A stretch of DNA of 51,123 bases from Dongia deserti (GTDB lineage: Bacteria; Pseudomonadota; Alphaproteobacteria; Dongiales; Dongiaceae): positions 1-51,123 of the forward strand of contig NZ_QORW01000030.1 in NCBI RefSeq assembly GCF_003574735.1, in the 5' to 3' direction. The position numbers and the translations under genes were made by a program. Shown in pieces: positions 1-40,593 of this stretch (its first letter is position 1; every line of letters begins with the position of its first letter). The notes beneath the pieces are model-generated. The model saw nothing but the letters and a program-made list of their open reading frames with translations. It was not told where the DNA came from and made no database searches.

Positions 1-1497
1 CTCTTCGAGCGTCTTGTCGGCCAGCTCTACCGCGCGGTTGAACGTCTCCTGGTCGATCGCCTTCTGCGCCAGCAGGTTGCCGAGGTGCTCGATCGTGTCG
101 GCATAGACCTCAGCCGGCGTGCGCATGGCCTCCATCAGCTGGCGGCCTTCCTCCATGGTGGCATTGGCCGCTTCCTGCGCCGCGTCGGCGAGCTGCTGCG
201 CGTCGGTCTTCTGCTGGATCGACGCGACCAGCTGCTGGATCGTCTGCCCGGCCGCCGAATTGATGTCGACGCCGGCCGCGTGCAACGCGTTGTAGAGCTG
301 CTGTTCTTCCGATGTGCGCGAGAGCTGCTCGTTCTCGAACTCAAGCGCCTCGACCAACTTGCGGATCTGCTTCTCCGCATCGGTCTCGCCGCGCGGTCCG
401 CCGCCGACCGGCGGTGGCGGCGCCTTGGGTGGCTGGTTGCCCTTATCGAGCATCAGGCGGTCGGCGAGGTCCTGCAGCTCGACCAGGCGCGCCTCGATCT
501 CGCCAAGGCGCTGCGTATCGCGATCGTCGCCGACGCCGAGGAAGTCCGAGATCCCGGCCAGCACGGAATCGTTCTGCCGCTGCTGGATGCGGGTGACGAT
601 CTCGTCGCGTTCGTCAATGAGATCGTTGATCTCGTTGGAGACGGCATCGAGCCCGCTGGCGTTGAGCCGGTTGATCCAGTCCGTCAGCGTGCGCAGCCCG
701 GCGATGGCGACGTCGAACGCCTTGCTGTCCGCCAGCGACTTGAGAAAGTCGCCCCAGGCGTCGTCGAGATTGTTGAGCGCCCCGGTGAGGCCAGTCACCT
801 GCTCGGTGGCCACGCCGCCGATCTGGCCGGCGACGGTGTCGAGGATGATCTGCATCGCGTGCGCCTGGTCGCCGGTCTCGACCAGGGATTTGATGAGATC
901 CTGCTGGGCCTCGGTGAAGCTGATGCCCGATCGGCGCAGGGCGGTGAGGCCAGTCACCGGGTCTTCGAGCGCCTTGCCGAGCTGCAGCACCGCGCCCTGC
1001 AGGTCGCCGCCCATGAGCGCGGCGAGATCCGTGGCCAGGCCGATCGCCTCTCGGAACGTGTCCCCCTGCACCTGGCGGAAGGTCAGCAGCACCGCTTCGG
1101 CCTGCTTGATAGCCGCATCGTCGAACAAGGTCGTGCGTTCGAGCTGGTCCGCCATGTCGGACAGCTCGTCGGCCGTGAAGCCTACGGTGCCGCCCGTCGC
1201 GCGCAGCACGGCATTGAGATTCGCGGTCGCCTTCTCGGCCGCCATGATCTCGCGCGTGGCGGCGCCGATGAAGCGCTGCACGGTCTGGAAGCTGGCATAG
1301 GCCGTGACGGCGCCGAGCACTGCCGTCTTGAGCCGGCCAAGCGATGCGCTGGCCAGGTCGGTGCCCTTGCTCGCCTGCTCGCCGGCGCGTTTGCCCGTGT
1401 CACCGAGCTTCTTCAGCTCGTCGGCGCTGACCTTGACCGCGCCGACGAACCCGGTGCCATCCGCCTTCAGCGTGATGCCAAGCGTGAGATCAGCCAT
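1..1497 (-). CDS. tail tape measure protein, N-terminal 499 residues (partial)
   Basis: The reading frame opens at ATG 1497, three bases after the stop of the tail chaperone extension, and runs off the window with no stop. The protein begins MADLTLGITLKADG and then has long helical, Ala/Gln/Glu-rich stretches and a section around residues 85-200 resembling the conserved N-terminal part of lambda H-like tape measure proteins (phrases such as LATDLAALMGG and ALEDPVTGLTAL). These proteins set tail length and help eject DNA. Position right after a frameshifting chaperone pair is the classic siphovirus arrangement. A Pro/Gly linker near residue 375 may separate two coiled-coil regions. Confidence 0.9.
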   Translation of the reverse strand, partial: MADLTLGITLKADGTGFVGAVKVSADELKKLGDTGKRAGEQASKGTDLASASLGRLKTAVLGAVTAYASFQTVQRFIGAATREIMAAEKATANLNAVLRATGGTVGFTADELSDMADQLERTTLFDDAAIKQAEAVLLTFRQVQGDTFREAIGLATDLAALMGGDLQGAVLQLGKALEDPVTGLTALRRSGISFTEAQQDLIKSLVETGDQAHAMQIILDTVAGQIGGVATEQVTGLTGALNNLDDAWGDFLKSLADSKAFDVAIAGLRTLTDWINRLNASGLDAVSNEINDLIDERDEIVTRIQQRQNDSVLAGISDFLGVGDDRDTQRLGEIEARLVELQDLADRLMLDKGNQPPKAPPPPVGGGPRGETDAEKQIRKLVEALEFENEQLSRTSEEQQLYNALHAAGVDINSAAGQTIQQLVASIQQKTDAQQLADAAQEAANATMEEGRQLMEAMRTPAEVYADTIEHLGNLLAQKAIDQETFNRAVELADKTLEE

Positions 1498-1500
1498 GGA

Positions 1501-1899
1501 TCACCGCCGCTTTTCGAGCATGGCTTTGATCGCGGCGTGCTCCATTTCGCGGAGATCCGCGAACAGCGTCGGCGTCACGGCCAGCGCCATCATGCGCGCC
1601 GCGCTTTCGACGCCGGGGTAGTCCAGCCCGATCGCCACGCCGCCCATGCCGGCCGTGCGCCACTGCGTCGAGCTGGCGAGGAACAGCCGCACCGCATCCT
1701 GGTTCTCCTCCAGGATCGCGAAGCGTGCCCGCTCTGCGTTGCCCTTTGCGCGTCGCTCCCATTGCGCGATGACCTCCGGTGGTGCGCCCAGCTCCCGCAG
1801 CTCACGCGCTACTGAATCGTCGCCGGCTGTCGGGTCATCGCCGCTTGCCCAGTGGCGAGCGGCGTCCCTGAGTTTTTTCTTTTCGCTCCGGTCATGCAC
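1501..1899 (-). CDS. tail assembly chaperone extension (GT-type, reached by -1 frameshift)
   Basis: This frame resembles DUF1799-type phage proteins and corresponds to the T part of lambda G-T. It overlaps the upstream chaperone gene (1809-2186) in the -1 frame. A slippery A-AAA-AAC at 1872-1878 joins them, giving a predicted 228-residue fusion: 105 residues from the upstream frame and 123 from this one. The ATG at 1899 lies upstream of the slip site and lacks a convincing ribosome site, so independent initiation is less likely than frameshifting. The stop is three bases before the tape measure start, consistent with the chaperone acting on the tape measure protein. Confidence 0.85.
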   Translation of the reverse strand: MHDRSEKKKLRDAARHWASGDDPTAGDDSVARELRELGAPPEVIAQWERRAKGNAERARFAILEENQDAVRLFLASSTQWRTAGMGGVAIGLDYPGVESAARMMALAVTPTLFADLREMEHAAIKAMLEKRR

Positions 1900-2186
1900 T
1901 CGATGAAGGCGCGCGCGATGCCGGCGCGCGCATAGGGGATGCGCAGCATGGTGCCGAGCGCGTCCTTGCTAAACGGCAGCTCCTCGGCTTTGCCTGGCTC
2001 GACCTCGCGCAGGACGCCGCTCCAGCCGACGATCACGTCCTCGAACTTGCTGAAGCTGGCGAGCTGGTCCGTCGGGATCAGCTTGAACGACATTTCGAAC
2101 TCGTGCTGTTGCGTGTTACCGCCGTCCACCGGCATCTCGACGATGACCGGCCACTTCACGATGCGCTCGGTGTTGAGCGTGAACAT
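1809..2186 (-). CDS. tail assembly chaperone, short (G-like) product
   Basis: This 125-residue protein is produced when ribosomes do not slip. It begins MFTLNTERIVKWPVIV, a beta-strand-rich start typical of proteins encoded between tail tube and tape measure genes. A ribosome site (AGAGGG) lies just upstream of ATG 2186. Residues after about 105 (GTPLATGQ...) are specific to the unshifted product. No enzymatic motif is seen. The G/GT role in coating the tape measure protein is inferred from position and from the frameshift signal. Confidence 0.8.
   Translation of the reverse strand: MFTLNTERIVKWPVIVEMPVDGGNTQQHEFEMSFKLIPTDQLASFSKFEDVIVGWSGVLREVEPGKAEELPFSKDALGTMLRIPYARAGIARAFIECMTGAKRKNSGTPLATGQAAMTRQPATIQ
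1839..1878 (-). promoter_or_regulatory. programmed -1 ribosomal frameshift signal
   Basis: On the minus strand the heptamer A-AAA-AAC (1878 to 1872) sits in the zero frame of the upstream chaperone gene as AGA-AAA-AAC. Seven bases later a 7-bp stem begins (CGCCGCT at 1864-1858 pairing with AGCGGCG at 1845-1839), with a possible 3-bp inner stem in its loop. Heptamer, frame, spacing and stem-loop all match canonical -1 frameshift signals, and this is the genomic position where tail phages use one. Confidence 0.85.
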
Positions 2187-2209
2187 GGATTGCCCTCTTT
2201 GCTGTGCGA

Positions 2210-2243
2210 GCGATCACGGGGTTGGCGGGGCGGCCGTGATCGC
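2210..2243 (-). promoter_or_regulatory. conserved-loop hairpin, copy 1 (after tail tube gene)
   Basis: A perfect 8-bp stem (GCGATCAC / GTGATCGC) encloses the 18-base loop GGGGTTGGCGGGGCGGCC (plus-strand reading). The element begins about 22 bases beyond the tail tube stop. The same 18-base loop occurs at 5588-5605 inside a stem of different sequence. No T-run follows on the transcribed strand, so it is not an ordinary intrinsic terminator. See copy 2 at 5579-5614. Confidence 0.7.
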
Positions 2244-2265
2244 GAGCCGGCCGCCGCCGGCGGCA

Positions 2266-3195
2266 CTATTTGACCGTAATTTTCACCTCGTCGTTGCCCA
2301 CGCTGGGATGGAACTCCAGGTCCATCGTCAGCGTCGTGATGCCCTGCGACTCGCCGTAGCGCGGATTGAGGAGCTGCACCTGCGGCGCATCGACCTGAAC
2401 GATCTGGCCGGCGCCGACGCCGTGGATCAGCTGCAGCGCGCCGAGCGTCTCGCCGCTGATGGCGCTGAAGAAGTTCTTCTGCGCGATCGTCGGCGCTTCG
2501 ATGACCACCTGTCCCGCCGGCTCGCGGTCGGTGATCTGCACGTCCTTCGTATTCACCCAGTCCCGGAAAGCGACGACATTCGCCAGGTCGATCGACAATG
2601 AGGACAGCGCGGGCGCGAAACCGTGCAGCGTGAAAGTCGGCGTATTGACCTTGTTGACGACACGCGGCTCGCTCCAGCCGGTGAAATCCGGCGTCACGAT
2701 TGCGGAATCATCAGGCTCAAGGGGCAAGCCCGTCATGGCAACGCGGAGTCGCGGCGGCAGTCCGGACGTAAACTCGAACACCGGGGATCCGCGATAGCCG
2801 TTCGCGCGGGTGCGCTGGCCGTCGACGTTCCAGAAGCTGGTCATGGAATCGAAGGCCGCCGACACCGGCGAATACTGCACATCGATGCCGACATTGATCG
2901 TCTCGGAGAACCCGCAGCAGCGCAGGTCCAGGCCCCACTTCGGCGCGGTGCCGGCAGCGCCGGCGCCGGCCATCTCCAGGAAGTAGCTCAGCGTCGACTT
3001 GGCGTTCGCCATCTTGGTCTTGGTCGTGCGCCCCATCCACGGCTTGATCGCCCTGCGGCCGACGCCGTCGGTAGCATACGGAACGAAGTCGACTTCGTGC
3101 GCGAGCGCCGCGTCGGCGGCGGCTGGCACTGGATCTGTGCCGTAGGTGACCTCACGCTTGCGCTGCAGGATCTTCTTCGCCCAATAGAACGGCAT
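2266..3195 (-). CDS. major tail tube protein
   Basis: This 309-residue protein lies between head-tail joining genes and the chaperone pair, where siphoviruses encode the tail tube. It starts MPFYWAKKILQRKREVTYGT, and its body has beta-rich stretches such as DLANVVAFRDWVNTKDVQ, as in phage tail tube/major tail V-type proteins. A ribosome site AAGGAG precedes ATG 3195. It should be one of the most abundant virion proteins, and the conserved-loop hairpin follows its stop closely. Assignment rests on position and general resemblance; a fold search would be needed to be sure. Confidence 0.8.
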   Translation of the reverse strand: MPFYWAKKILQRKREVTYGTDPVPAAADAALAHEVDFVPYATDGVGRRAIKPWMGRTTKTKMANAKSTLSYFLEMAGAGAAGTAPKWGLDLRCCGFSETINVGIDVQYSPVSAAFDSMTSFWNVDGQRTRANGYRGSPVFEFTSGLPPRLRVAMTGLPLEPDDSAIVTPDFTGWSEPRVVNKVNTPTFTLHGFAPALSSLSIDLANVVAFRDWVNTKDVQITDREPAGQVVIEAPTIAQKNFFSAISGETLGALQLIHGVGAGQIVQVDAPQVQLLNPRYGESQGITTLTMDLEFHPSVGNDEVKITVK

Positions 3196-3201
3196 GGCTG
3201 G

Positions 3202-3354
3202 TTACTCCTTCGCTGCGGGCGCCGGCTCGCCTGCGACGGCCGGCTTTGTGGGCTCTTCGACGCGCGTTCGAACGCCGTCCTTGATCATGTAGCTGCCGCC
3301 CTCGGCCGGTGGCGGCAGTTCGGACTTGCTGGTCTCGGCTGGCTTCTTCGCCAT
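3202..3354 (-). CDS. small hypothetical tail-region protein
   Basis: The likely start is ATG 3354, immediately after the stop of the upstream gene at 3357, giving 50 residues beginning MAKKPAETSKSELPPPAEGG. A longer upstream start would overlap the neighbour needlessly. The protein is rich in Lys, Pro, Glu and Ala with a short SYMIKDGVRTRV core and looks mostly disordered. Similar short proteins often sit before the tail tube gene in Mu-like phages. Function unknown. Confidence 0.6.
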   Translation of the reverse strand: MAKKPAETSKSELPPPAEGGSYMIKDGVRTRVEEPTKPAVAGEPAPAAKE

Positions 3355-3356
3355 GG

Positions 3357-3824
3357 TCAGGCTCCCACTCGGAAATGGCGCGTCGCGAGATTGAGGCGCG
3401 CGCCGTGACACAGCACATCGGCGAACATGACCGGGCCGTGCTCGATGAGCTGCACGCCGATCGCCGGCGGGGGCACTTGCGTGCCTTCAATCAGGCTGCC
3501 CAGCGTCTCGTCGGCGCGGAAAGCGTCGCGGATCGCTTCGATCAGAAGATCGAACGTCAGCTCGCTCTCGGTGGCGTCGTCGATCGCCATGAAGCCGCGG
3601 ATCTGCCAGCGGTGGTCGATGACGTAGCTGCCGAGCGTTGGGCTGGCTTCATTGGTGGCGATCCGGCGGATGTGCCAACCGCGAAGCTGGCCGCCAGTCA
3701 CATACAGTGCCTTGAGATCCGCCACACGCGTTGCCAGGCGCTCGTACTTGTGCACCACGCCGATGCCTGGAATCGCGTCCAGCTTCGCTTTGATGGCATC
3801 CCGGATCTGGGTGAGCGTCGTCAT
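3357..3824 (-). CDS. tail terminator-like protein
   Basis: The 155-residue product begins MTTLTQIRDAIKAKLDAIPGIG, a start commonly seen in neck/tail terminator proteins (lambda U / Mu gp37 position) that cap the tail tube and join it to the head. It overlaps the upstream morphogenesis gene by 4 bases (ATGA), indicating coupled translation. The middle (LGSYVIDHRWQIRGFMAIDDATESELTFD) is a conserved-looking beta/alpha section. The terminator role is inferred from gene order. Confidence 0.65.
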   Translation of the reverse strand: MTTLTQIRDAIKAKLDAIPGIGVVHKYERLATRVADLKALYVTGGQLRGWHIRRIATNEASPTLGSYVIDHRWQIRGFMAIDDATESELTFDLLIEAIRDAFRADETLGSLIEGTQVPPPAIGVQLIEHGPVMFADVLCHGARLNLATRHFRVGA

Positions 3825-4330
3825 TGGATCGCCTTTCCAAGACGCTGTAAGCCGCGTTCCGCGGCCCGCGTCAATATGGCCTGCACGGTCGCCTCGCCAT
3901 CGCTGAAGGCGCGCTGGAACATGAAATGACCCTTAGTGCCTTCGCGCGCGATCTTGCGCGCGACCGCATAGCCGACTTCCTCGGCTTCCTCCGGTGGCAG
4001 GCCGAACTTCAGCCGCGCCCACTCGCTGAGGGCCTGCACTGGCGGGAAATGCGGCTTGGTGCCCAGCTCGACGGGGATCGCATAGCCGAGCGACGTGCCG
4101 ACGACGCCGATCACGTCCTCGCCAATGCGGCGCGGCTCGCGCGCGCCGACAGAGCTGCGCAGGTTGCCGCTCGCGGTCTCGGTATTGTCCTTGACCAGGC
4201 GCTCCAGGTAGAGCGAGGCCTCCCACACGCCGTTGACCAGCTCCTCCGCCATCAGGTCCGGCGCATAGCGCCAGGCGTCCGCGACGGCTGCGACCTTGCT
4301 GGCGTCGATCTCGATGCGCATGCCGGTCAT
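3821..4330 (-). CDS. HK97 gp10-like head-tail completion / virion morphogenesis protein
   Basis: The 169-residue protein has the layout of the gp10-like family: an N-terminal helix, a segment with LVKDNTETASGNLRSSV, then GTSLGYAIPVELGTKPHFPPV, which matches the family's typical motif of a Tyr/Ala-rich turn followed by E-x-GT-x-PH. It starts at ATG 4330 (alternatively ATG 4321) and overlaps both neighbours by 4 bases. It most likely acts at the head-tail interface. Confidence 0.8.
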   Translation of the reverse strand: MTGMRIEIDASKVAAVADAWRYAPDLMAEELVNGVWEASLYLERLVKDNTETASGNLRSSVGAREPRRIGEDVIGVVGTSLGYAIPVELGTKPHFPPVQALSEWARLKFGLPPEEAEEVGYAVARKIAREGTKGHFMFQRAFSDGEATVQAILTRAAERGLQRLGKAIQ

Positions 4331-4998
4331 CGCCGCAACCTGTGTGTCATGCGCGGCCCGCCCAAAGAGTCCCTGACGTCCAGCTCCACCACCGTGCCGG
4401 CCGCCACCTCGCGCTTGGGATCGATGCCGAGCTGGTCGAAGTAGAACTTGCGCAGGCGGCTGGCGCGCGATGCGAACTGGTCGCCGCGCGAGCGGTGATC
4501 GACGGCGTCGGCCTGGATGGTGGAATCGCTGGCGCCCGAAAAGAACGCCGCCAGCTCGTCGAGCAGGATGGCGGCCGCGTAGGAGGCGATCGGCTCGCGA
4601 TCGTCGACCGGGATCGTGTCGGTGACGCCGTCGACCTGGTGACGGATCGTGTAGGTGGTGCGCACCGCCTGGCCGGCGCCGATCGCGCTGTCGAGCTGGA
4701 TGACCGTGCTCGCCGGCTTCTGGTAGAGCCGCCGGAACTCAGGGGCGATGAAGGTTGGCGGGATGTTGCCGACCGGGTGCTCCAGGCTTTTGAGGTCGGA
4801 GAAGCCTTCCTGCCAGCCAACCGGCAGCGCCAGCTCGTTGGTGCCTGCACCAACCAGGTCCTCGACCTTGGTGCGCGGACGGTCCTTGCCGTAGCGTGCG
4901 AACGCCAAGCCGAGCGCGCGGTCCCGATCGGCGACCGTGATCTTGGTCGTATCGTCGCGCACCAGGTTGTCGGTCAGCGTCTGATAGTCGGAAAGCAC
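4327..4998 (-). CDS. head-tail connector protein
   Basis: The 223-residue protein starts at GTG 4998, preceded by AGAGGGC at good spacing. The sequence is mainly helical at the ends (LSDYQTLTDNLVRDD... and SRASRLRKFYFDQLGID) with an Ala-rich helix AAAILLDELAAFFSGASD, the general pattern of gp6-like connector proteins. It lies between the capsid region and the gp10-like gene, the usual connector position. No catalytic motif is present. Confidence 0.65.
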   Translation of the reverse strand: MLSDYQTLTDNLVRDDTTKITVADRDRALGLAFARYGKDRPRTKVEDLVGAGTNELALPVGWQEGFSDLKSLEHPVGNIPPTFIAPEFRRLYQKPASTVIQLDSAIGAGQAVRTTYTIRHQVDGVTDTIPVDDREPIASYAAAILLDELAAFFSGASDSTIQADAVDHRSRGDQFASRASRLRKFYFDQLGIDPKREVAAGTVVELDVRDSLGGPRMTHRLRR

Positions 4999-5017
4999 TT
5001 CTTGCCCTCTGATGGTT

Positions 5018-5058
5018 GGCGCCGGCCGGGAGAGAAGGCTGACCCCCGCGCCGGCGCC
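5018..5058 (-). promoter_or_regulatory. hairpin downstream of the signal-peptide gene
   Basis: A perfect 9-bp stem (GGCGCCGGC / GCCGGCGCC) encloses a 23-base loop. It begins about 31 bases after the stop of the gene at 5090-5542. Its loop does not match the two conserved-loop hairpins at 2210 and 5579, but it occupies the same kind of place: one of only three sizeable gaps in the head-tail block. No T-run follows on the transcribed strand. Confidence 0.5.
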
Positions 5059-5089
5059 GTTTTCCCCCGCTGCAGAAGGGGATCTGCGT

Positions 5090-5542
5090 CTACTTCCGGA
5101 ACAGCGTTACCAGCACGACGATGTCGTTCCAGGTCGGCGAGGTGCCGCCGATCGCCAGGTTCACGGTGATCGCGGCTTCGTCGGCCAGGTTCGTGTCGGT
5201 GACGGTAGCCTCAGCCACGGCGCCGGCGGTGACCGCGACCGGCGCCGACAGGATCGTGACGCCGCCTTCCAGCACGTCGACGGTCAAGGTCGGCGAGGTG
5301 CCGCCGGACGCGCGCGCCGAGGCGCTGACGCCGAGCACGGCCGCCGGGAACGGCAGCGTGAGCCGCGCGACGGCGGTGGTGTTCGCGGTATACTGGCCGC
5401 TGATGTGCAGCGGGATGACGACGACCTGGCCGGCGCCGGGCGTGACGTTGGGGGTCGCGGCCTCTGCAAGTTGCGTGATCGGCGCCAGGATCGTCGCGGC
5501 GACGAGCAAGGCGGCGGCGAGAAGATTGCGTGCGAACTTCAT
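5090..5542 (-). CDS. secreted or membrane-anchored protein in the head module
   Basis: The 150-residue protein starts at ATG 5542 after a strong GAGGAG site. Residues 1-30 form a textbook Sec signal peptide: MKFARN, a hydrophobic LLAAALLVAATILAPI core, then ending near AEA-ATP. The remainder is Thr/Ala/Val-rich and beta-prone, with VVVIPLHISGQYTANTTA and a Thr-Val-Thr-rich middle, and ends VLVTLFRK. Decoration proteins are expected between capsid and connector genes, but those lack signal peptides. It could instead be an uncleaved anchor or an acquired exported protein. No family recognised. Confidence 0.75.
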   Translation of the reverse strand: MKFARNLLAAALLVAATILAPITQLAEAATPNVTPGAGQVVVIPLHISGQYTANTTAVARLTLPFPAAVLGVSASARASGGTSPTLTVDVLEGGVTILSAPVAVTAGAVAEATVTDTNLADEAAITVNLAIGGTSPTWNDIVVLVTLFRK

Positions 5543-5578
5543 AGTGGCTCCTCTGTCTACAACCGCTCCAACGGCGGG

Positions 5579-5614
5579 CGGCGCATCGGGGTTGGCGGGG
5601 CGGCCGATGCGCCG
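5579..5614 (-). promoter_or_regulatory. conserved-loop hairpin, copy 2 (after capsid gene)
   Basis: A 9-bp stem (CGGCGCATC / GATGCGCCG), extended by three more pairs beyond one mismatch, encloses the loop GGGGTTGGCGGGGCGGCC at 5588-5605, identical in all 18 bases to the loop at 2218-2235. The stems of the two copies differ yet both pair perfectly. The element begins about 16 bases after the capsid stop. The pattern suggests a structured RNA whose loop is the recognised part. Confidence 0.7.
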
Positions 5615-5630
5615 ACCGCCCCTGTCGTCG

Positions 5631-7961
5631 CTACGCGACGACCGATTTATCGAAGGCGCGGAAGTCGAGTGCGTTGCCGCCGTAGATGTGGCGCAGCTTC
5701 CAGGTCACTTTGTCGTTGGTGAACATGGAGCCGACGGTCGGCGCGTCCTGCACGAACAGCTCCGGCTCCTCGTTGCCGTTGAGGAAGCCGATCTCGATGC
5801 CGGGCACGTCCATCGGGTCGGCGCCCAGCGCCCAGTCGTTGGTGTCGGTCCAATACCAGATCGGCAGGATCTCCAACGTCATCATCTGGACGAACGTCTT
5901 GTCGTTGTTGGTGTTGCGGTTGAAGAGGTTGACTGCCGTCTCCTTCAGGTCCTCGGGCACCAGCAGGTATTTCGGTCCGACGCCGATGCGATCGTTCGAG
6001 TTCAGCTCGGTCTGCTTCACCATCGCGAGCCGGCGCGCGGCCAGGCTGGTCGCGTCCAGCGCAGCGGAGCCGAGGTTGCCGTGCGAGGCGTGGAAGAACG
6101 CCACGCCGTCATAGATGGTCGGGTTCGTGCGGATGAAGTCGAGCACGAACTTGGCGAGCGTGCGCTTGGCCGCCCGGCCGAGCTTGATCGGGATCTGCCG
6201 GATGGCGCCGACGTCGTCGTTGGCGATCATCTCCAGTGTCACGTCCTCGGTGCCGCCGCGCTTCTTGACGGCATAGGTTGCCTTCTCGTCAGTGGGCGAG
6301 GACTGCGCGATATAGGGGGCGCCTTCCTCGACGATCGGCAGGTCGCCATAGCCGCCGTAACGCGTGCGCTCGTTGGTGCGGAAGTCCTTGATCGGGACCG
6401 GCGTGGTGATGATCGGCCGCCACACGTCGTACTGGTTGATGTTGCGGTAATCGGCGATCATGCGGCGCGTGATCGAGTTGCCGAGCACGTTGGTGAAGCT
6501 GCCGCTGTCGAGCGACTCGCGCAGCAGCGCCTGATCACAATTGTCGATGCGGCCTGTAATGCCGTGGTCGCCAGTGATTGCCTCGTAGCACTCCCGGAAC
6601 GAGCGCGCGTGACGGTGCTCCTTGTGACTGGGATCGAAGAAGGCGTCCAGCATAGCGGCCACCTTCTCGGCCCGCGTCTCGCCCATCTCGATGCGCGGGA
6701 AGCCGCCGAGCTGCACCTTGCCGCTCTCGGTGAACTTGGCGATGTAGGTGCGTTCGTCGCCGATCAGCTTGTCGATGTCGGCCTCGGTGAACTTCGCCAT
6801 GAGCGTGACCTGCGCCGTCAGCTTCGTCTTCGCCTCGTCGGGCAGGCCGCAGCCAGCGATCGCCGCGCGGGCGTAGGCGCGCGCCTCGGTCATGCGGATC
6901 ACCTCGGCGAGCTGATCCTGCGTGACGGCGTTCGCGGGTGCCGCGGCAGGTGTGGCCGCGGGGGCCGGCGCGACGGCTTCGGTCAGCAGCGTCTCTAGCT
7001 GCTCGTCGGAGAGCTGGTCGACCTTCTTGCCCTGCAGCAGGTCGGGCCGCTTCGCTTCGATGAGAGCGATGATCTTCGTGCGATCCATGATGACGTCCTT
7101 CTTCGCTTCGAGGAGCCCGATGACGCGTCCGCCGGCGCCGGGCTCGACGATGAGGTCGACGGAGTTGACTTCGGTGAACTTGGTGGCGGTGCGCTGCGCG
7201 CGGCCATTGCGCGTCTCGTTGCGCGCCATGCCCTTGGCGTCGATCGAGAAGCCGAACAGGTTGGTGAGGCCGCTGTCCCACGCTTCGCGGATCTTCACCG
7301 CCTCCGGCCCGCTGGGATTGAGCAGCGTGAAGGTGGCCTGCACCTCACCGCTGTCAGCGCCCCGGCCTTCGACGAACTTCGGTTCCGTCAGTCCGCCGAT
7401 GAGGTTGCGGAAGTCCTTGCCCTTGCCGGCCAGGTGCTCCGCGTCGCCCTTGACGAAGACGCGGGCGTTGTCGAACAGGGGCACGGCCTCGCGCAGGACA
7501 GCGTCCGGATAGTAGTTGCTGTTGCCGCTGAGACCGGCCTTGATGACGCGGATCTTGTAGCGGCCGGGCTTGCCGGCGGACTCGATGAAGGCGCCAGTGC
7601 GCAGCGCCTCGCGCATACCGACCGGCTGATAGACTTCGATCACCTCGACCGGATCGCCGAGCGTCACGGCATTGGTGCCTTGGTCGTAGCTGTAGGGATA
7701 GGACCAGGTCTTGCCGTCGCGCTCCACGATCACGCGGTCGGAGAACAGCGCCTTCACGTAGGGCCACGGGTCCCAGTCGCTCGACATGGCGAACACGCCG
7801 CGCAGCGCCAGGGTGATGAGGCCCATGATGTGCTGGTAGGAGCCGGCGGCAGCTTCCTTGAGCGCGGCCGGCCCGACGATGCCCAGCGTGGGGATCGAAG
7901 CGCCGGCGGCTTCGATGAAGCGCGCCGGCAGCTCGTCGCCAATGACGAGGACGCGGCTCAC
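5631..7961 (-). CDS. prohead protease-scaffold-major capsid fusion protein
   Basis: The 776-residue product starts at GTG 7961, overlapping the upstream stop. Residues about 140-280 resemble prohead serine proteases: a His in DAEHLAGKG (H176) and a Ser in LFGFSIDAKG (S239) fit the catalytic pair of the herpesvirus-like S78 type. Residues about 290-420 are charged and helical with an Ala/Pro linker near 330-345, as in scaffolds. From about 440 to the end it reads as a major capsid protein (SFTNVLGNSITRRMIADYRN, KKRGGTEDVTLEMIANDDVG). In Mu these jobs are split between I/Z and T. The single chain must be self-processed during prohead maturation. Confidence 0.88.
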   Translation of the reverse strand: MSRVLVIGDELPARFIEAAGASIPTLGIVGPAALKEAAAGSYQHIMGLITLALRGVFAMSSDWDPWPYVKALFSDRVIVERDGKTWSYPYSYDQGTNAVTLGDPVEVIEVYQPVGMREALRTGAFIESAGKPGRYKIRVIKAGLSGNSNYYPDAVLREAVPLFDNARVFVKGDAEHLAGKGKDFRNLIGGLTEPKFVEGRGADSGEVQATFTLLNPSGPEAVKIREAWDSGLTNLFGFSIDAKGMARNETRNGRAQRTATKFTEVNSVDLIVEPGAGGRVIGLLEAKKDVIMDRTKIIALIEAKRPDLLQGKKVDQLSDEQLETLLTEAVAPAPAATPAAAPANAVTQDQLAEVIRMTEARAYARAAIAGCGLPDEAKTKLTAQVTLMAKFTEADIDKLIGDERTYIAKFTESGKVQLGGFPRIEMGETRAEKVAAMLDAFFDPSHKEHRHARSFRECYEAITGDHGITGRIDNCDQALLRESLDSGSFTNVLGNSITRRMIADYRNINQYDVWRPIITTPVPIKDFRTNERTRYGGYGDLPIVEEGAPYIAQSSPTDEKATYAVKKRGGTEDVTLEMIANDDVGAIRQIPIKLGRAAKRTLAKFVLDFIRTNPTIYDGVAFFHASHGNLGSAALDATSLAARRLAMVKQTELNSNDRIGVGPKYLLVPEDLKETAVNLFNRNTNNDKTFVQMMTLEILPIWYWTDTNDWALGADPMDVPGIEIGFLNGNEEPELFVQDAPTVGSMFTNDKVTWKLRHIYGGNALDFRAFDKSVVA

Positions 7962-40518: not shown

Positions 40519-40593
40519 TGGAGCGGGCGACGGGGTTCGAACCCGCGACCCTCGGCTTGGGAAGCCGATGCTCTACCGCTGAGCTACACCCGC
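40519..40593 (-). tRNA. tRNA-Gly (anticodon CCC)
   Basis: The minus strand folds as a complete tRNA: acceptor stem GCGGGTG / CGCCCGC (one G-U), D arm GCTC...GAGC, anticodon stem TCGGC / GCCGA with loop TTCCCAA giving anticodon CCC, and T arm GCGGG-TTCGAAC-CCCGT (one wobble pair). The 3' CCA is encoded (40519-40521). It reads GGG glycine codons. Confidence 0.95.

Follow-up and report, generated by a model that had tools for sequence, protein, structure and literature searches.

Two hairpins with one loop and unrelated stems in a Dongia deserti prophage: candidate copies of a dispersed palindromic DNA element

The repetitive extragenic palindromic (REP) elements of the GTAG and CGTC super-families are described, in the accessible part of Di Nocera et al. 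2013 (PMC3733652), as short palindromic sequences that lie mostly behind coding regions and occur also in polymerase and tRNA-synthetase genes. The same part reports unpaired GA in the stems of Pseudomonas aeruginosa GTAG-24 repeats, and CGTC repeats that are without a known transposase, have stems of 8-9 bp and loops of 4-5, and are missing in Acetobacteraceae. Rickettsia palindromic elements (RPEs), as outlined in the available text of PMC10969869, measure ~150 bp, encode a conserved peptide and lie in-frame in unrelated alphaproteobacterial genes. Repeats of both kinds are detected via conserved stems, tags or transposases. Here we describe a hairpin family with two copies in a 51,123-nt stretch of Dongia deserti DNA (contig NZ_QORW01000030.1; this whole stretch is called the window), which keeps its loop and its fold only and would therefore be largely missed by sequence-based repeat finders. 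We put at about one in two the probability that the window hairpins are copies of a dispersed, untagged, REP- or RPE-like palindromic DNA element that is folded on a specific strand and is carried by Alphaproteobacteria and their phages. Below, C numbers denote contigs of the D. deserti genome, G numbers other genomes and L numbers loci.

Both hairpins contain GGGGTTGGCGGGGCGGCC, which occurs exactly twice on the forward strand of the window, at 2218-2235 and 5588-5605; shuffled windows hold a mean of 0.38 matches to this 18-nt core with three mismatches allowed. A first-pass annotation of this DNA had recorded both stems as perfect and different, around an 18-nt loop. At either end of the core the two outermost letters are paired as well, so that the true loop is 14 nt. 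Perfect helices of 10 bp (2210-2219 with 2234-2243) and 11 bp (5579-5589 with 5604-5614), unrelated in sequence, enclose it. Pairing extends further in both. Copy 1, behind the capsid gene, spans 5573..5620 on the forward strand, the G-rich strand being taken as the folded one; past a single G.A mismatch (5578/5615) it has another five pairs, and read base by base the stem comprises 17 pairs with that one mismatch. Copy 2, behind a tail gene (2206..2247, same strand), continues past a tandem A.G/G.A (2209/2244 and 2208/2245, in the context CGAG/CGAG) with two more pairs. Among the 19 rows listed for perfect stems of at least 9 bp in the window, these two alone have this loop. The late genes flanking both hairpins lie on the reverse strand, and the stems start 16 nt past the capsid stop (gene end 5631) and 22 nt past the tail-gene stop (gene end 2266), in agreement with the spacing first annotated.

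The hairpin family is not restricted to phages. A search of the D. deserti genome with two mismatches allowed found the core four times exactly, once with one mismatch and once with two; the last match, on C48, has no stem, lies inside an open reading frame (ORF) and was taken as chance. Model R1 adds two weak copies, on C36 and C21, and the copies on C33, C6 and C21 lie within or behind phage-like genes. Matches to the degenerate core RGCCGCCMCRCCAACCCY number 20, spread over 11 of 17 genomes of the same order, against one for the backwards pattern, and all 20 have complementary flanks (a stem score, as we defined it, of 5 or more). In a class-wide draw 13 of 289 genomes had a match (30 places; reversed control 4). 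A named genome collection holds at least 120 stretches with matches, 80 of them listed; among the matches listed, long- and short-armed copies are frequent in Acetobacteraceae (Rubritepida, Roseomonas, Roseicella, Rhodopila, Acidocella, Elioraea), and many others have no arms. Over the order genomes and the named collection, 85 of 143 listed rows, duplicates included, reach the stem score. In fourteen genomes picked for a match, exact cores number as many as 56 per genome, with none for the reversed control. A model match at E 1e-4 is present in 11 of 96 genomes in the family of G034, which appears to include Rhizomicrobium, since the match in G378 agrees in place and score with that in the genome of L132. 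Viral contigs contain 17 exact cores in 15 stretches, ten of the 17 with a stem by score.

What these copies share is a core of two nearly invariant blocks, which on the C-rich strand read RGCCGCC, 1-3 nt, CCAACCCY. A search for the block pair GCCGCC and CCAACCC with arms returned 101 cases, against 2 for a swapped pattern and 2 and 0 for two permuted ones; the reversed pattern overlaps the real motif and is invalid as a control. The linker between the blocks is 3 nt in 86 cases, 2 nt in nine and 1 nt in one, with outliers of 8, 31 (a nested hairpin) and 38 nt; linkers of 10 and 16 nt go with two block mismatches each and may be chance. Long-armed copies have arms mostly of 12-15 bp and of unrelated sequence, the whole element being about 44-48 bp. 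In short-armed copies the arms are GCGCGC and the hairpin is part of a longer repeated unit, at whose edge the other-strand stop codon of a neighbouring gene often stands. Our analysis concerns long-armed copies, those of the window among them; the short-armed form is linked to these by the common core.

Among 37 long-armed copies, 92.4% of arm cells pair (shuffles 53.3%; slid partners 34-48%) and 218 cells are changed on both sides (shuffles 66.3), although this pairing test is not independent evidence because the rows, on which R1 is based, were chosen for having stems. Corresponding sites in related prophages offer a comparison that does not depend on this selection. The window prophage and that on C33 are 86.6% identical over 8,584 columns, and both have hairpins at the two matching sites, behind the capsid and the tail gene, with unrelated arms; 17 of 18 core letters are the same at the first site and a 17-nt variant stands at the second. 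The post-capsid hairpin is also present in prophage loci of G002, G003, G004 and G008 and in viral loci L011 and L012; the closer pairs among these show changes in one arm that are mirrored in the other. Elsewhere, arms close to GGGCGGGCAAAG recur at the separate loci L416, L427 and L457, in two genomes of the Rhizomicrobium family, as if whole units had been copied. To judge from these alignments, the structure is kept and the arm sequence is free, and the constraint on fold plus recognised loop that had been proposed from the two window copies is supported by the family-wide copies, whose free arms still pair, and by the mirrored changes at corresponding sites.

Some copies depart from the common form. 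In the post-capsid copy of G003 (L448:1420-1491) the core is split by a 31-nt stretch that is itself hairpin-like. In alignment A1 (core positions 1, 8 and 18) the closing pair, G-C or A-T, goes with C or A at linker position 8 in nearly all copies; both types are present within one genome, which might reflect a loop-stem contact or two old sublineages. Head-to-head pairs at L018:167-240 and 1748-1824 combine a G-type core with an inverted A-type core, the middle arm being common to both. At L342-L381 (G017, G019) the short-armed unit holds a second hairpin (ATACC...GGTAT), its edge often being an other-strand stop codon.

Which strand of the element is kept foldable? The arms contain mismatches, and G.A and G.T are stable ones. 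We counted mismatches in a set of 80 non-redundant copies from which those with flanks under 40 nt, an arm score below 7, near-identical arms or any mismatch in the core blocks had been dropped, as had GCGCG-armed copies scoring below 9; kinship among copies was lowered by removing similar arms, and the statistics were computed without a tree. Read on the C-rich strand, the arms have 37 TC/CT against 3 AG/GA mismatches (p 2e-8) and 18 AC/CA against 7 GT/TG (p 0.04), the rest being CC 5, GG 1, TT 6 and AA 1. Tandem TC/TC occurs 12 times, nine of them as CTCG/CTCG, which is CGAG/CGAG on the G-rich strand, and window copy 2 has this motif just outside its counted stem. By comparison, 403 coreless hairpins with C-rich loops from the same loci gave 106:106 with zero tandems, and 1,077 looser coreless controls 299:268 with one. 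Energies computed for the arms alone are lower on the G-rich strand in 28 of 36 mismatched copies if DNA parameters are used, and in 24 of 36 if RNA parameters are. The strand test was repeated on newly extracted copies, with controls; 15 hairpins of one later locus set, four of them already seen, feed into the 80, so that these 15 are no independent replicate. Since TC/CT and AC/CA on the C-rich strand are G.A and G.T on the other, it is the G-rich strand that, by this mismatch pattern, is kept foldable. That strand is the template of the late genes in the window, and messenger RNA is therefore not the obvious working molecule. The pattern points to folded DNA as the working form, and the lower frequency of G.T than of G.A in the arms would fit DNA better than RNA.

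Genes upstream of the copies encode capsids of three Pfam families (Phage_capsid_4 with a gpT-like match in the window, Phage_capsid_2 and Phage_capsid_3), and include rpoA, rplT (ribosomal L20), ahpC and cytochrome c1. Of the 80 copies, 29 have a protein or tRNA gene ending within 35 nt of an arm on the C-rich strand alone, 5 on the G-rich strand alone (p 4e-5) and 4 on both. Stop codons on the C-rich strand stand 0-12 nt from the arm in 24 of 28 cases. Eighteen tRNA neighbours were found within 120 nt, 16 of them upstream on the C-rich strand; in 14 of the 16 the core lies 15-24 nt behind the tRNA, and four of the 14 are short-armed. At L423:1488-1780 four hairpins stand in a tandem array, their arms and linkers differing slightly, and the RNase P RNA gene rnpB (1100-1472, reverse strand) lies immediately downstream.

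Copies also lie in-frame within genes that are empty in relatives. The pheS copy is present in 4 of 16 genomes and the site is empty in 12, and its core is inverted in G013 relative to the congener G014. Of 15 dnaE2 loci, 7 could be resolved over this stretch and the remaining 8 were checked for the core alone: G013 and G014 have the copy, G000, G009 and G011 are clearly empty, and no other dnaE2 gene fetched has a core. At about the same site the dnaE2 gene of G005 (L334) carries a different, longer palindromic repeat. A prophage gene has an in-frame copy at the same place on C6 and C21, with the core inverted between them. In-frame copies in PDH linkers and at one N-terminus are less certain as insertions. 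The 8 nt to the left of the left arm have a T fraction of 0.44, compared with 0.21 to the right of the right arm; the T-rich codons in pheS are present in the empty alleles too, and the tract therefore looks like a target preference. With a possible pseudoknot in mind, in which CCAACC would pair with GGTTGG farther downstream, GTTG was counted to the right of the arm: it is found 9 times against 2.5 expected in the 80 copies, mostly in phage copies, and may be a decayed inverted core.

These observations can be assembled into a proposed mechanism. The active form would be the G-rich strand, as a single-stranded DNA stem capped by GG-TT-GG-NGN-GG-C-GG, the cap possibly being a two-tetrad quadruplex like that of the thrombin-binding aptamer. 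A structure-reading enzyme, other than the Pfam Y1 transposase, would copy or insert the element on the 3' side of tracts rich in T; in GC-rich genomes such as these, tracts of this kind stand mostly at stop codons and tRNA trailers. Insertions that break a frame would be lost and tolerated ones persist, their arms then drifting by compensatory change. The phage sites behind capsid and tail genes appear to have been retained, and a secondary benefit in phages is therefore likely. In its full form, as a self-spreading hairpin of ~45 nt of single-stranded DNA, with any stem sequence and a quadruplex-like loop, read by shape on one strand, put at T-rich sites by an enzyme and kept by phages behind capsid genes, this scheme is offered tentatively, and we consider it possible at best.

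Several results weigh against the dispersed-element reading. The genomes compared gave no new insertion event, target duplication or enzyme, and the third hairpin site of the C33 prophage, which the window prophage lacks, is a replacement of 26 nt by 52, no clean insertion. Old copies are still paired, which is not required of neutral remnants, and tight placement behind stops also fits a functional 3' element. In 42 of the 80 copies neither a gene nor a tRNA ends within 35 nt by the rule applied. Two-sided change affects 14 of 15 pairs in the 37-copy alignment, no more than in shuffles (13.6). Seven of the 17 exact cores in viral contigs lack a good stem. A quadruplex in the loop is only a possibility, its ViennaRNA prediction (RNA parameters) being marginal and chosen for the A-type loop only. 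Finally, of 76 loci in viral contigs that have a related capsid gene none carries the element, one weak match with two mismatches aside, which is probably chance; the element therefore does not generally accompany capsids of this type. In many of the 29 of these loci that were listed, other hairpins were seen by eye behind the capsid gene.

The first-pass annotation had named stabilisation or processing of the mRNA 3' end, or binding of a phage or host protein, as possible roles. On such a reading the C-rich transcript hairpin would protect or process the ends of highly expressed genes, its loop being bound by a host factor. The copies behind capsid genes, rpoA, rplT, ahpC, cytochrome c1 and tRNAs (16 of 18 tRNA neighbours), the excess of the C-rich strand as sole sense strand (29 against 5, with both in 4 and neither in 42) and the 24 of 28 arms that start within 12 nt of a stop all suit it. 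The mismatch asymmetry favours the opposite strand, however, the mismatches being stable only if the G-rich template strand folds; cores stand in both orientations in coding sequence, no such role is evident for the in-frame copies or for the array upstream of rnpB, and where a gene ends at a short-armed unit, its sense strand is often the G-rich one. We therefore regard an mRNA element as unlikely to be the main working form, which leaves room for a secondary RNA role behind capsid genes. A plain terminator had already been doubted, and rightly: on the sense strand neither window hairpin is followed by the T-run of an intrinsic terminator. TTTT lies to the right of the arm in 2 of the 80 copies (1.6 expected), although a T-run does follow the rpoA copy L246. 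A boundary acting at the DNA level, at which the folded G-rich template slows or stops RNA polymerase or limits read-through, would use the strand that is kept foldable, and in 29 of 34 one-sided cases this is the template strand of the neighbouring gene, some neighbours being of highly expressed kinds. Yet arms so near stops and tRNAs would presumably place the block inside the gene, expression would suffer from the in-frame copies in pheS and dnaE2, and some copies have the other orientation, so that we think a boundary role distinctly improbable.

A REP element of a known kind, mobilised by its associated Y1 transposase (RAYT), would account for the size, the hairpin shape, the position behind genes and the presence in polymerase and tRNA-synthetase genes, all of which match the REP descriptions in the accessible part of PMC3733652. 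This reading has already failed on both defining features tested. In the 80 copies GTAG stands at the left foot once (1.1 expected) and at the right foot three times (1.6), and CGTC once (1.3) and never (1.3), with no enrichment of the tag complements; the transposase family PF01797 has Pfam matches in 0 of 11 element-bearing genomes and in 5 of 14 controls. The conserved part, moreover, is the loop and not the stem, and we give a conventional REP very little credence. Chance, or recent duplication of one hairpin, could be entertained while only the two copies in the window were in view. A recent duplication had been named beforehand as an outcome that would speak against a selected structure. 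Both are ruled out in all practical respects, because copies are numerous, their arms are unrelated, and corresponding sites show mirrored changes. The dispersed, strand-specifically folded element accordingly remains our preferred reading.

In the window itself, the gene transcriptionally upstream of copy 1 is a protease-capsid gene (5631..7961, reverse strand, start codon tentative) that matches PF25209 (2.4e-51), PF10124 (1.1e-5), phrog_4523 and phrog_133; downstream lies a small ORF (5090..5542, reverse strand) with no Pfam or PHROGs family match. Copy 2 has upstream of it a tail gene (2266..3195, reverse strand; phrog_290, 1.8e-18) and downstream another (1809..2186, reverse strand; phrog_569, 2.1e-13). 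The capsid identity assigned earlier is supported by the Pfam families; 'tail tube' for the gene upstream of copy 2 was inferred from its position, the PHROGs family being a minor tail protein. The sole Rfam match of the window is a tRNA gene at 40522-40593 on the reverse strand.

We conclude that the element corresponds to nothing we could find described, as had been supposed. No hairpin tested has an Rfam match at the gathering score, and the core 16-mers are absent from the open-licence literature searched, where queries on conserved-loop hairpins, terminators and palindromic repeats also returned no description of the family, most subscription papers lying outside that coverage. The available part of PMC2680597 contains nothing bearing on it. 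A putative motif 'Mu-gpT-DS' has no Rfam match here and its name was not found in the same literature. Plasmids searched with a 66-nt hairpin gave weak matches only (best listed E-values 0.04 to 5), and relatives sought by the tail protein in viral contigs yielded none that was confirmed. The family is of wider interest in that its strand-specific mismatch pattern lets genome sequences by themselves show on which of its two strands a palindromic repeat stays foldable, a question that in our judgement is still open for REPs in general. It also brings together a repeat of the chromosome, the late operons of phages and in-frame insertions into essential genes, pheS being one.

Hairpins of the IS200/IS605 type and integron attC sites work as a folded single strand with one strand preferred, and in attC the stem sequence may vary. 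The likeness to the present family would lie in this folded, one-strand-preferred form; in the 11 genomes searched no Y1 transposase was found. The thrombin-binding aptamer, d(G2T2G2TGTG2T2G2) in the accessible part of PMC13204723, resembles the G-strand core GG-TT-GG-NGN-GG-C-GG on its duplex stem, a likeness suggested by analogy, and differs in that the third loop of the core is one C instead of TT and that the core belongs to a genomic element known from sequence alone. With RPEs, as given in the available text of PMC10969869, the family has in common palindromic DNA lying in-frame in unrelated alphaproteobacterial genes with empty relatives (pheS, dnaE2 and the prophage gene). Unlike the ~150-bp RPEs, it is ~45 bp long with unrelated arms, and its core stands in both orientations; since the core is inverted at some sites, no peptide is kept. 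Like REPs in the accessible part of PMC3733652, it consists of short palindromes behind genes (38 of the 80 copies lie within 35 nt of a gene or tRNA end) that also occur inside polymerase and tRNA-synthetase genes. Unlike REPs, it has neither GTAG nor CGTC tag and conserves the loop while leaving the stems free, and where the CGTC repeats of the same source have stems of 8-9 bp and loops of 4-5, the arms here are 12-15 bp and the loop is 14 nt.

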